A stretch of DNA of 11,428 bases from Sphingomonadales bacterium (GTDB lineage: Bacteria; Pseudomonadota; Alphaproteobacteria; Sphingomonadales; Sphingomonadaceae): the NCBI GenBank assembly GCA_020200935.1, contig JAIVHR010000207.1:1-11428 (forward strand), given 5' to 3'. Made by a program: the position numbers and the translations under genes. Below, one piece after another: positions 3,966 to 11,252 of this stretch (its first letter is position 1; each line of letters opens with the position of its first letter). A model generated the notes under the pieces. It ran no database searches, was not told the origin of the DNA, and saw nothing but the letters and a program-made list of their open reading frames with translations.

Positions 3966-3992
3966 GGGACCCATTCTGCACACTGACTCTTT

Positions 3993-4088
3993 CGTCATTG
4001 CGAGCGTAGCGGGCCGCAGGCGACCGCAGGTCAACCAATCCAGGCCCGAACTGGATTGCCGCGTCGCCTTCGGCTCCTCGCAATGACG
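3993..4088. repeat. CATTGCGAG palindromic repeat, copy 1
   Basis: Bounded by CGTCATTGCGAG on the left and CTCGCAATGACG on the right, with inner arms CCAATCCAG and CTGGATTGC. It can fold into a long imperfect hairpin between cysK and the NRDE gene. A second copy is at 5716-5824. This family is widespread in proteobacterial intergenic DNA and may act as a transcript end here. Confidence 0.8.
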
Positions 4089-5695: not shown

Positions 5696-5715
5696 ACTTG
5701 CTCTTCTCCACTCAT

Positions 5716-5824
5716 CGTCATTGCGAGGAGCGCAGCGACGAAGCAATCCAGGCCCGCCTTATCTGCCGGCGAACCGCCTGTCCGCCCTGGATTGCCGCGT
5801 CGCCTTCGGCTCCTCGCAATGACG
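5716..5824. repeat. CATTGCGAG palindromic repeat, copy 2
   Basis: Begins CGTCATTGCGAG and ends CTCGCAATGACG, with AAGCAATCCAG and CTGGATTGC as inner arms. Its right half matches the 3993-4088 copy almost exactly; the central section differs in length and sequence. It sits between the acyl-CoA dehydrogenase stop and the start of the 5009-5695 gene, a likely transcript boundary. Confidence 0.8.
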
Positions 5825-5853
5825 GTAAATTGAAGCCGAGCCCGCCAACCGCG

Positions 5854-8647: not shown

Positions 8648-8778
8648 GAAAAATCTCCTTTCCGTGCGATCAACGAATGTCGCCGTCGTCGGCTCCCCAG
8701 GGTTTGACGACAAAAGCGAGACAAACGCGTTGCGCCCCCCTATATGCGGCGCGAGACGATCAAGTTGCCGGGATCGCC
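8648..8778. promoter_or_regulatory. Divergent upstream region of the Rho-N gene and purF
   Basis: Both genes must start from this 131-base stretch. On the plus strand there is TATATG at 8741-8746 about 33 bases before the purF ATG, a reasonable -10 position, but no matching -35. TTGACG occurs at 8704-8709, too far from it for a standard pair. No PurR-type or riboswitch motif is recognised. Confidence 0.3.
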
Positions 8779-10083
8779 ATGCTGACAACCAATCCCTTCG
8801 ACCCTGCCGACCGCAATTTCGACCAGGACGACGTCATCCGTCAGCTTCCGGGCGAGGCGGCCTGTGGCCATGTGCGCTATTCGACGACCGGCGAATCGGG
8901 CCTGCGCAACGTCCAGCCGCTCTATGCCGATCTCGAATCGGGCGGCTTCGCGATCACGCATAACGGCAATATTTCCAATTCGCTGACCCTCAGGCGCGAT
9001 CTCGTCAAGCATGGCTCGATCTTCCAGTCGACCTCGGACACCGAGACGATCATCCACCTCGTCGCGACCTCGAGCTACAAGACCCTGCTCGACAAGGTGA
9101 TCGATGCCCTGAAGCAGGTCGAAGGCGCCTATTCGCTGGTCTGCCTGACGTCGCAGGGGATGATCGGCTGCCGCGACCCGCTCGGCATCCGGCCGCTGGT
9201 GATGGGCAAGATGGGCCCGGAAGGAGACCAGGCGACGATCCTCGCCTCGGAGACCGTGGCGCTCGATGTGATCGGCGCCGAGTTCGTCCGCCAGGTCGAT
9301 CCCGGCGAGCTGATCGTCGTCAATGACGAGGGCATCGCCTCGCACCGGCCCTTCGCGCCGCATGCGCCGCGGCCCTGCATCTTCGAGCATGTCTATTTCT
9401 CGCGCCCCGATTCGATCGTCGACGGCCAGTCGGTCTATTCGGTGCGCAAGGAGATCGGCGCCGAGCTGGCGCGCGAAAATCCGGTCGAGGCCGATCTCGT
9501 CATCCCGGTGCCCGATTCGGGTACCCCGGCGGCGATCGGCTATGCGCAGCAATCGGGCATCCCCTTCGAGCTCGGCATCATCCGATCGCATTATGTCGGC
9601 CGCACCTTCATCCAGCCCGGCGACCGGGTCCGCCATCTCGGCGTCAAGCTCAAGCACAATGCCAACCGGGCGCTGATCGACGGCAAGCGCGTGGTGCTGA
9701 TCGACGATTCGATCGTCCGCGGCACGACCAGCACCAAGATTGTCGAGATGATGCGCGAGGCCGGCGCGACCGAGGTCCATATGCGGATCGCCAGCCCGCC
9801 GACGACGCATAGCTGCTTTTACGGCGTCGACACGCCCGAGCGCGACAAATTGCTCGCCTCCTCGCGCAATGTCGAGGAGATGCGCCAGTTCATCGAGGCC
9901 GACAGCCTCGCCTTCCTGTCGATCGACGGGCTCTATCGGGCGCTCGGCGAGGACGGGCGGCGCGAGCAGAATCCCCAGCGCTGCGACGCCTGCTTCTCGG
10001 GCGACTATCCGACCTCGCTGACCGACAAGGATTCGCGCGGCAAGATCGCCGAACTTCCGCTGCTCGCCGAACGGGTGACGTGA
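8779..10083 (+). CDS. purF: Amidophosphoribosyltransferase PurF, glutaminase N-terminus deleted
   Basis: 434 residues against about 480-500 usually. It catalyses the first committed step of purine synthesis, PRPP plus glutamine to phosphoribosylamine. The start ATG 8779 gives MLTTNPFDPAD, the normal sphingomonad beginning. The sequence then jumps to NFDQDDVI, skipping about 55 residues that hold the catalytic cysteine (ECGVFG) and LQHRGQE. Retained glutaminase parts are GHVRYSTTG (30-38), HNGN (61-64) and SDTE (86-89). The phosphoribosyltransferase half is complete, with the PRPP loop VVLIDDSIVRGTTS (305-318). Cysteines 200, 346, 402 and 405 match in spacing the four [4Fe-4S] ligands of Bacillus subtilis PurF. 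As written, the protein could at best use ammonia. The longer frame opening at 8677 is non-homologous upstream sequence. Confidence 0.92.
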   Translation: MLTTNPFDPADRNFDQDDVIRQLPGEAACGHVRYSTTGESGLRNVQPLYADLESGGFAITHNGNISNSLTLRRDLVKHGSIFQSTSDTETIIHLVATSSYKTLLDKVIDALKQVEGAYSLVCLTSQGMIGCRDPLGIRPLVMGKMGPEGDQATILASETVALDVIGAEFVRQVDPGELIVVNDEGIASHRPFAPHAPRPCIFEHVYFSRPDSIVDGQSVYSVRKEIGAELARENPVEADLVIPVPDSGTPAAIGYAQQSGIPFELGIIRSHYVGRTFIQPGDRVRHLGVKLKHNANRALIDGKRVVLIDDSIVRGTTSTKIVEMMREAGATEVHMRIASPPTTHSCFYGVDTPERDKLLASSRNVEEMRQFIEADSLAFLSIDGLYRALGEDGRREQNPQRCDACFSGDYPTSLTDKDSRGKIAELPLLAERVT

Positions 10084-10084
10084 T

Positions 10085-10220
10085 TTGTCAGACCTTCGCT
10101 ATCGCGAAGGCGCGGCACCAGCCCGCACCCCCACCCGGCCTCCCACAGGGTAAACTCATTGGGAGGCCGGGTGGGGGTGCGGGCTGGTGCCGCGCTCGAC
10201 CGCCAGGTCGAGTCTGACAA
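10085..10220. repeat. 136-base perfectly paired four-way (cloverleaf) element
   Basis: Starts one base after the purF stop. Four helices abut without unpaired junction bases. P1 is TTGTCAGA (10085-10092) with TCTGACAA (10213-10220). P2 is CCTTCGC/GCGAAGG (10093-10110, loop TATC). P3 is 35 bp, 10111-10145 with 10160-10194, with a 14-base loop. P4 is CTCGACC/GGTCGAG (10195-10212, loop GCCA). All 57 pairs are Watson-Crick, and only the three loops are unpaired. C10093-G10212 and G10110-C10195 can pair alternatively, so the junction can migrate one step. No T-run follows on either strand, so it is not a classic terminator. It is probably a dispersed palindromic element; origin and function are unknown. 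Confidence 0.8.
10161..10183 (+). other. G-quadruplex motif inside the palindromic element
   Basis: Four G-runs (GGG, GGG, GGGGG, GGG) separated by loops of 5, 1 and 3 bases, meeting the usual G3+N1-7 pattern. Because it lies in a perfect inverted repeat, the minus strand of 10122-10144 carries the same motif. Quadruplex and P3 hairpin would exclude each other. Confidence 0.6.
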
Positions 10221-10244: not shown

Positions 10245-10952
10245 GTGACTGATCTCAAAAACAAAACCGCCCTCGTCACCGGCGCGAGCCGGGGGATTGG
10301 CGCGGCGACGGCGAAGGCGCTGGCCGGCGCCGGCGCGCATGTCATCCTCGTCGCGCGGACATCGGGCGGGCTCGAGGCGGTCGAGGAGGAAATCCACGAG
10401 GCCGGCGGCAGCGCGACGATCGCCCCGCTAGACCTGACCGACGGCGACTCGATCGCGCGGCTCGCCGCGGCGGTGCGCGAGCGCTGGCCGGCGCTCGACA
10501 TCCTCGTGCTCAACGCCGCGATGCTCGGCAGCCTGACCCCGGTCACCCAGATCGAGGCCAAGGAGCTGAGCCAGGTGATGACGCTCAATTTCCTCGCCCA
10601 GCAGGCGCTGATCGGCGCGCTCGACCCGGCGTTGCGCAAGAGCGAGGCCGGCCGGCTGATCGCGCTGACCTCGAGCGTCGGCCGCAACCCGCGCGCTTAT
10701 TGGGGCGCATACGGCGCCTCGAAAGCGGCGTTCGAGACCTTGGTCGAGGCCTATGGCGAGGAGGTCCGGAACACTTCGGGCGTACGCGTCGCGATCGTCG
10801 ATCCCGGCGCGACGGCGACCAGGATGCGCCAGAATGCCTATCCGGGCGAGGACCAGGCCGAACTCAAGCCACCCGAAGCCGTCGGCGACTATATCCGCGA
10901 CATGCTGACCGGGGATTTCGAGACCGGGACGCGGGTGCGCGTGGAAGAGTAG
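10245..10952 (+). CDS. Short-chain dehydrogenase/reductase (SDR)
   Basis: 235 residues from GTG 10245, with GGAG at 10236-10239; the ATG at 10234 is out of frame and stops at once. Classical SDR marks are the nucleotide-binding TGASRGIG (12-19), LDLTD (62-66), NAA (90-92), N115, the catalytic S143 and Y156-x3-K160 (YGASK), and PGAT (187-190). It is a cytoplasmic NAD(P)-dependent oxidoreductase. Its position directly after purF is one I recall as conserved in sphingomonads, but no purine-related role is known. The basic A37-R38 region (LVARTSGG) is compatible with NADP preference; substrate unknown. The gene appears intact. The 136-base palindromic element separates it from purF, so separate transcription is possible. 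Confidence 0.9.
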   Translation: MTDLKNKTALVTGASRGIGAATAKALAGAGAHVILVARTSGGLEAVEEEIHEAGGSATIAPLDLTDGDSIARLAAAVRERWPALDILVLNAAMLGSLTPVTQIEAKELSQVMTLNFLAQQALIGALDPALRKSEAGRLIALTSSVGRNPRAYWGAYGASKAAFETLVEAYGEEVRNTSGVRVAIVDPGATATRMRQNAYPGEDQAELKPPEAVGDYIRDMLTGDFETGTRVRVEE

Positions 10953-11012: not shown

Positions 11013-11100
11013 CGTCATTCCAGCGGAGGCTGGAATCTATCCCGGCTGTCGGTCTCGCGCTCGCGCATCTGGGATAGACCCCAGCCTTCGCTGGGGTGAC
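11013..11100. repeat. Composite palindromic repeat GTCATTCCAGC ... GCTGGGGTGAC
   Basis: The left part has the dyad ATTCCAGCGGAGGCTGGAAT and the right part ACCCCAGCCTTCGCTGGGGT. CTATCCCGG and TGGGATAG further pair the two parts, so the whole folds into a branched hairpin. These half-elements are of the type seen dispersed in many alphaproteobacterial genomes. Confidence 0.75.
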
Positions 11101-11252
11101 GCATTGTTCCTTCTCCGGCGACCCTCGTCTCGAAGACCGATCGCAGCGCAACATTCTTGCGCTAACTTTGCGAAGTGGACGCATAGAGGCCGTCGGGAAT
11201 TGTGCTTTTGTTTCGCGGGGTCGCCCGATCCTTCCGTTAAGTTCACGCCGGC

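Follow-up and report, generated by a model that had tools for sequence, protein, structure and literature searches.

The stretch of DNA analyzed here, referred to as the window, spans 11,428 nucleotides (contig JAIVHR010000207.1) from a member of the Sphingomonadales. Toward its right end, purF is followed on the same strand by a gene for a short-chain dehydrogenase (SDR), and the gap between the two genes is filled by a 136-base element (positions 10085–10220), which lies 1 base from the purF stop codon and 24 bases from the SDR gene (Table 1).

Table 1. Features of the purF-SDR interval, with positions counted along the window.
Feature	Positions	Strand	Remarks
purF, amidophosphoribosyltransferase	8677..10083	+	TIGR01134, 439.1 bits (cut-off 350); start uncertain
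Outer stem, 5' strand	10085..10092		TTGTCAGA; conserved terminal repeat with TGTC tag
Arm 1, 7-bp hairpin	10093..10110		CCTTCGC-TATC-GCGAAGG; loop class TNNC
Core stem, 5' strand, C-rich	10111..10145		no mismatches with 10160-10194
Core loop, 14 nt	10146..10159		CAGGGTAAACTCAT; from sequence and fold
Core stem, 3' strand, G-rich	10160..10194		from sequence and fold
Arm 2, 7-bp hairpin	10195..10212		CTCGACC-GCCA-GGTCGAG; unlike arm 1
Outer stem, 3' strand	10213..10220		TCTGACAA; from sequence and fold
SDR gene	10245..10952	+	PF00106; downstream of the element

Refolding reproduced exactly the gap-free four-way structure that an earlier note, made from the sequence, had described for the purF-SDR gap: mismatch-free helices of 8, 7, 35, and 7 bp, with every base at the junction paired. 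In order, TTGTCAGA is followed by a hairpin, the 35-bp stem with its 14-nt loop, a second hairpin, and TCTGACAA. Folded as DNA, the element forms 57 pairs at -77.7 kcal/mol (z -16.8), and folded as RNA it reaches -127.9 kcal/mol (z -18.3), values that lie 17–18 standard deviations below those of dinucleotide shuffles, of which none in 200 was as good in either case. The RNA fold leaves the terminal T-A pair open and gains three additional pairs within the 14-nt loop. The one step of branch migration claimed for this copy is real: it is the alternative junction (9/6/36/6 bp as DNA) that appears in the fold of lowest energy. By eye, the core loop CAGGGTAAACTCAT is a quasi-palindrome, found in either orientation among other copies, and the G-rich core strand (GGGAGGCCGGGTGGGGGTGCGGG), whose complement is C-rich, resembles a quadruplex motif. 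The proposed likeness to viral hairpin ends and tRNA-like cloverleaves proved unnecessary: a search of the whole window returned no Rfam family at the gathering threshold, on which ground a viral hairpin end, a tRNA-like RNA, and a riboswitch were rejected as candidates, and the 13 weaker matches near the element were mostly to microRNA hairpins.

The element recurs elsewhere, as a DNA repeat dispersed among marine bacteria belonging to the genus Parasphingopyxis. The window's own genome, a 2.1-Mb assembly that is 66% complete, carries it at three places, one of them cut by a contig end, and BLAST, the comparison that the earlier note had called for, matched 37 of 148 genomes, including all ten of Parasphingopyxis and the window's own. 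A covariance model likewise found matches in 10 of 10 Parasphingopyxis genomes. With 150 scored candidates per genome, these numbered, on both strands together, 143 in G006, 110 in G008, 108 in G005, 52 in G002, 24 in G007, and at most 10 in each of the others, corresponding to approximately 72, 55, 54, 26, 12, and 1–5 sites, respectively. The stretches of the single-contig genome G006 that were chosen for fetching contain 81 sites, 67 of them full copies. Copies in this genome are clustered, with 26 of 75 sites at 2.5–2.8 Mb and none at 0.1–0.2 and 0.3–0.7 Mb. Outside Parasphingopyxis, the matches consist mostly of the core hairpin, sometimes accompanied by a side hairpin. Side stems of at least 6 bp were present on 9 of 40 core sides in other genera against 1.3 expected, and on both sides at 2 of 20 loci (two of the 20 loci belong to one genome, and locus L026, with an interrupted core, was excluded); the side arms are thus only partly shared beyond the genus.

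The copies compared below derive from 229 hits in the fetched loci, reduced to 180 after removal of repeats, 136 of full length, and 133 used, in 111 of which both arms could be parsed. At three loci (L056, L080, L082), contig ends fold back perfectly through the element and are probable assembly artifacts; they were removed before the later counts, and L056 remains among the rows of the alignment described next.

Alignment of 29 full copies, taken from the genome of the window and from those of eight relatives (nine in all), revealed that 97.0% of cells pair and that 20 of the 57 pairs have changed on both sides. The covariation score was 0.216, compared with 0.067 for shuffled alignments (none of 500 as high) and 0.014–0.039 when the structure was slid, so that the search for compensatory changes suggested by the earlier note was positive. 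Changes on both sides affected six of seven pairs in each small arm and 8 of the 35 core pairs; the outer stem, nearly invariant in the 29 copies, showed no covariation, and pairing in arm 1 reached only 89.7% of cells. None of the findings that the earlier note had named as fatal to its reading, namely a single unconserved copy, a lack of homologues, and a lack of covariation, applies to this element.

The core stem is kept nearly perfect in copies that have diverged. It contains at most one mismatch per 35 bp in 96 of 118 readable copies (the other 15 of the 133 have no readable motif). In G006, the 5' core halves of separate copies differ at 3.5 of 35 positions (~10%), and mismatches between the two halves within a copy occupy 21 of 1680 cells (1.25%), as counted over 48 copies with four or fewer mismatches; this ungapped count excludes 8 of the 56 readable copies, which have six or more mismatches, perhaps because of gaps. 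The closest copies are 94.8% identical among the 133 and 94.9% identical among the 67 full G006 copies, in a comparison that covers the fetched copies and therefore only some of those in genomes other than G006. Since no pair reaches 95% identity, maintenance accounts for the near-perfect stems better than youth does, and a recent burst of copying was rejected for the copies examined. The earlier note had offered recent insertion or active maintenance as the reason for so perfect a stem; insertion specific to the lineage is borne out by the site comparison below, and youth is not. Additionally, G-T and A-C mismatches are equally rare in G006 core stems (4 of 21 each), so that there is no sign of RNA wobble tolerance and selection acting on an RNA is unsupported. 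Eighteen hand-picked pairs of orthologous occupied sites showed an element identity of 0.805, compared with 0.801 for 300 random pairs (P 0.57); because orthologous copies resemble each other no more than random ones do, it seems that copies undergo replacement or conversion rather than simple inheritance.

Although both arms of a copy are drawn from a shared pool, with 47 distinct first heptamers and loops that are mostly TNNC, they are unlike each other more often than random pairing would allow. Over the first seven bases, arms within one mismatch of each other occurred in 0 of 111 copies against 17.1 expected (minimum of 6 in 2000 random pairings), and arms within two mismatches in 2 of 111 against 24.6. 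A stricter shuffle of right against left arms, indeed too strict, since the arms themselves helped to set the orientation, gave an expectation of 5.8 within one mismatch (P 0.0014); exact identity under this scheme, 0 against 2.3 expected, was not significant (P 0.089). In G006 alone, 0 of 53 copies had arms within one mismatch, compared with 9.7 expected. The first arm base was the same in 32 of 111 copies against 48.3 expected (P 0.0006) and the first three bases in 1 against 10.4, all of these statistics being only partly controlled for kinship among copies. The potential for branch migration is reduced: at least one step is possible in 31 of the 111 copies against 54 expected, two or more in 6 against 25, and three in 0 against 19. 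Because the arms are self-complementary, equal arms would permit collapse into a hairpin of ~60 bp, and partly equal arms would permit sliding of the branch. Across the family, the arms thus tend to favor a junction that stays fixed, whereas the earlier note had in mind a mobile Holliday junction, which they disfavor as a family design; the copy at 10085–10220 allows its one step. Birth of the whole element by fold-back of one half, which predicts identical arms, was rejected, as identical arms were found in 0 of 111 copies.

Copies often lie directly at gene ends. Of the 133 full copies, convergent genes flank 55, tandem genes 52, and divergent genes 5; 1 overlaps a called gene, and 20 are too near a locus edge to be judged. 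Background gene pairs in the same loci, which include occupied gaps and overlapping loci, were 131 convergent, 419 tandem, and 104 divergent, with genes called by a codon-usage script and no annotation used. The 112 classifiable copies show a significant convergent excess (P 7e-10) and a significant deficit of divergent positions (P 0.0007). Copies in tandem gaps are closer to the stop codon in 37 cases and to the start codon in 14 (P 0.002). The 162 element sides that face a 3' end fall into 82 at 15 nt or less from the stop codon, 13 at 16–35 nt, 28 at 36–60 nt, 14 at 61–110 nt, and 25 farther away, so that 52 of them belong neither to the class at 15 nt or less nor to that at 36–60 nt. Sides facing a start codon are within 15 nt in 9 of 62 cases. 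In several flanks, the stop codon itself is seemingly supplied by the element end, e.g., as TGATTTGTCAGA or TAGTTTGTCAGA (by eye).

The peak at 36–60 nt matches the distance of one extra module. Such stacked modules, of the form GTCAGA-arm-CGCSGCACCGGG, lie outside the element at a step of 43–46 nt, mostly 44–45 nt. In 20 of the 133 copies they flank only the left side, in 18 only the right, and in 7 both. The module motif occurs 156 times in G006, compared with 2 occurrences of a reversed control. Moving outward from the element, the shared flanks turn from T-rich to G-rich on its left side and from A-rich to C-rich on its right side. The idea that the outer T and A flanks pair and covary was rejected, as the observed pairs equaled expectation, and a classical terminator was rejected because no T-run follows the stem.

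At purF, the comparison of gaps in relatives that the earlier note had proposed was informative. The adjacency of purF and the SDR gene is retained in nine relatives, and the element is absent from the gap in all nine, from which a gain in the lineage of the window follows. By eye, the gap in G001 contains a repeat resembling the CGTC type in place of the element, and that in G006 contains a sequence resembling the CTTCGACAAGCTCAGGACGA repeat. A repeat of the form TTCGTCCTGAGC(C/T)TGTCGAAGG occurs in the window at ~4890 and ~8270, with a similar sequence in the G006 purF-SDR gap. Other junctions in relatives present empty sites or element halves (by eye), and inspection by eye of the empty sites, which are too diverged to read, revealed no target-site duplication. 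The inversion of an arm during assembly that the earlier note had feared is unlikely, given that the adjacency is kept in nine relatives and that 29 copies share the architecture with compensatory changes. Earlier work is reported to have shown that ribosomes stall, and translation is reduced, at REPs located 15 nt or less from a stop codon (PMC12306157). By analogy with this distance rule, the copy after purF could lower the level of PurF.

The closest known kind of repeat is the CGTC-tagged REP dimer, surveyed in Sphingomonas wittichii and S. chlorophenolicum and including neisserial dRS3 and Rickettsia RPE-4/6 (Di Nocera et al., 2013, PMC3733652). That survey defines these REPs by a CGTC, TGTC, or CCTC tag, unpaired and directly beside the stem, a stem of 8–9 bp with A-T at positions 1–2, and a loop of 4–5 nt, and describes their occurrence as dimers, their proximity to stop codons, their convergent bias, and their apparent lack of a dedicated transposase (PMC3733652). 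According to the same survey, the S. wittichii repeats lie <20 bp from stop codons, and dimers may be set in palindromes (PMC3733652). Dimers of unlike partners are preferred in most families and exclusive in some, a preference said there to have "no obvious explanation," with protection from hairpin-cutting enzymes named as one possibility (PMC3733652). The Parasphingopyxis element has in common with CGTC dimers short hairpins with 4-nt loops, an outer (C/T)GTC tag, opposite orientation, unlike partners, a place next to stop codons in convergent and tandem gaps, and an alphaproteobacterial host. The missing transposase near the copy, to which the earlier note had drawn attention, is ordinary for CGTC-type repeats (PMC3733652).

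Individual features agree with the CGTC definition to different degrees. Copies of the element are inverted dimers, mostly downstream of genes in convergent or tandem gaps and near stops, and a length of 18 nt (7+4+7) is found in 185 of 222 arms, with loops that are mostly TNNC, in agreement with CGTC REPs. In contrast, the TGTC tag (CGTC in some copies) is parted from the stem by AGA, and the stem is usually of 7 bp and not regularly A-T first: it is a perfect 7 bp in 154 of the 222 arms and 8 bp in 5, with A or C as first base in nearly all. The element further differs in that its spacer is a conserved 35-bp palindrome that makes the dimer a four-way junction, in that modules stack at a step of 43–46 nt, and in that the unlikeness of the arms has been tested against random pairing and reaches the first base pairs. 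The family is therefore regarded as related to CGTC REPs and as working in the manner of a REP dimer, and is not called a proven CGTC member, since it departs from the definition in the position of the tag and in the length and A-T start of the stem. Two CGTC-type pairs are present elsewhere in the window. One inverted pair (1631–1655 on the plus strand and 1690–1714 on the minus strand), with unlike 8-bp stems and a 5-nt loop, lies shortly after a gene end, and a second heterodimer (11013–11036 on the plus strand and 11078–11101 on the minus strand), with 8-bp stems and 4-nt loops, lies ~60 bases past the SDR gene. Longer repeats starting with CGTCATTGCGAG and containing CAATCC occur at ~3990–4060 and 5715–5825; the latter is an inverted pair that produces a spurious ORF with the peptide HCEERSDEAIQ. 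No paper naming the element was found in the open-licence literature, as judged mostly from titles and the beginnings of abstracts.

Bacterial MITEs, such as ERIC, BOX, RUP, and the Coxiella MITEs, are non-autonomous intergenic palindromes with terminal inverted repeats. The element resembles them in all of these respects, its own terminal inverted repeats included, and differs in being cross-shaped rather than a single hairpin; by eye, no target duplication was seen. In AAV-type T-shaped ends, two short arms flank a long stem, and in Seeman-type immobile junctions, unlike arms fix the branch point. The element likewise has two short arms beside a long stem; unlike AAV-type ends, it is a chromosome-internal repeat with no sign of a replicative or terminal role. 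GTAG REPs and REPINs, which are served by a RAYT, share with it the inverted hairpin pair, extragenic location, high copy number, and 3'-end preference, whereas the element has no GTAG tag and G006, the genome richest in copies, has no Y1 transposase. PF01797, the Y1 transposase family, is absent from G006 and from 8 of the 10 Parasphingopyxis genomes, which makes a RAYT improbable as the mobilizer; across the 148 genomes it was found in 33, being slightly commoner in those with the element (10 of 37) than in those without (23 of 111). Mobilization by a RAYT was rejected on these counts, and no mobilizing enzyme was found among Y1 transposases, the only class searched.

The element is probably a member of a non-autonomous, REP/MITE-like family of mobile palindromes in Parasphingopyxis, the core of which is common to other Sphingomonadales. 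It is built of two short REP-like hairpins, with their TGTC tags outermost, that are set in opposite orientation on either side of a conserved 35-bp palindromic core. Presumably the element transposes, its copies being spread by an enzyme that would act in trans and is probably not a RAYT. The unlike arms would prevent the formation of a continuous ~60-bp hairpin, which might be cut or lost, and would fix a four-way junction instead; protection from hairpin cleavage is a possible role suggested for unlike partners of REP dimers in the CGTC survey (PMC3733652). The core stem may be kept perfect at the DNA level, either by self-templated correction or by selection, e.g., at insertion. Most tentatively, the hairpin at the purF end may limit read-through and tune expression of purF or of the next gene.

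Other explanations account for parts of these data. A classical MITE, derived by deletion from a DDE insertion sequence with terminal repeats of approximately GGGnTTTGnTTTGTCAGA and moved by the transposase of that IS, would agree with the lineage-specific gain at purF and with the continuation of shared sequence into the T-rich/G-rich and A-rich/C-rich flanks; the apparent absence of a target-site duplication, the lack of any IS remnant between the element ends, and the near-fixed module step, unusual for a MITE, render this origin improbable. Slightly less credit is due to an immobile DNA device, in which the cruciform would be bound in many copies by a structure-specific protein, such as gyrase, a nucleoid protein, or a junction resolvase. 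Unlike arms with suppressed branch migration, near-perfect stems in diverged copies, and the uneven spread in G006 are what such a device would display, but copy number ranges from ~1 to ~80 among species (some assemblies being incomplete), and for that reason a genome-wide function is unlikely to depend on the element.

A host regulatory RNA or bidirectional terminator, selected at gene ends and not mobile, would explain the 3'-end position, the convergent bias, the very stable RNA fold, and the compensatory changes. It would not explain why nine relatives have the same gene pair without the element, why T precedes the hairpin and A comes after it with no T-run following, why G-T mismatches are no commoner than A-C, or why orthologous occupied sites are no more alike than random copies, and it is accordingly rated as very improbable. 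Three fold-back contig ends do carry the element, as would be expected of an assembly artifact; nevertheless, conserved and covarying copies with conserved flanks recur in a single-contig genome and in named isolates, which already refutes artifact and chance palindrome alike and leaves them a negligible probability.

A bolder proposal may be entertained, although it is rather unlikely: that natural selection has given Parasphingopyxis genomes up to tens of immobile four-way DNA junctions, which a structure-specific enzyme would use for copying or insertion at stop codons and whose cores would be re-perfected at the DNA level. The arms match at the branch-point base pair less often than chance and are never alike among the copies examined; if the proposal is true, the cross would seldom slide and would never collapse into one hairpin. 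The family displays, with statistics, the preference for unlike partners known from REP dimers, and its palindromic core makes the question testable, as the choice between a fixed cross and one long hairpin depends on whether the arms are unlike. The enzyme that moves the element could be sought in related species, where sites are occupied, empty, or half-decayed. The unlike arms give the impression that it is the shape of the cross that is being preserved.
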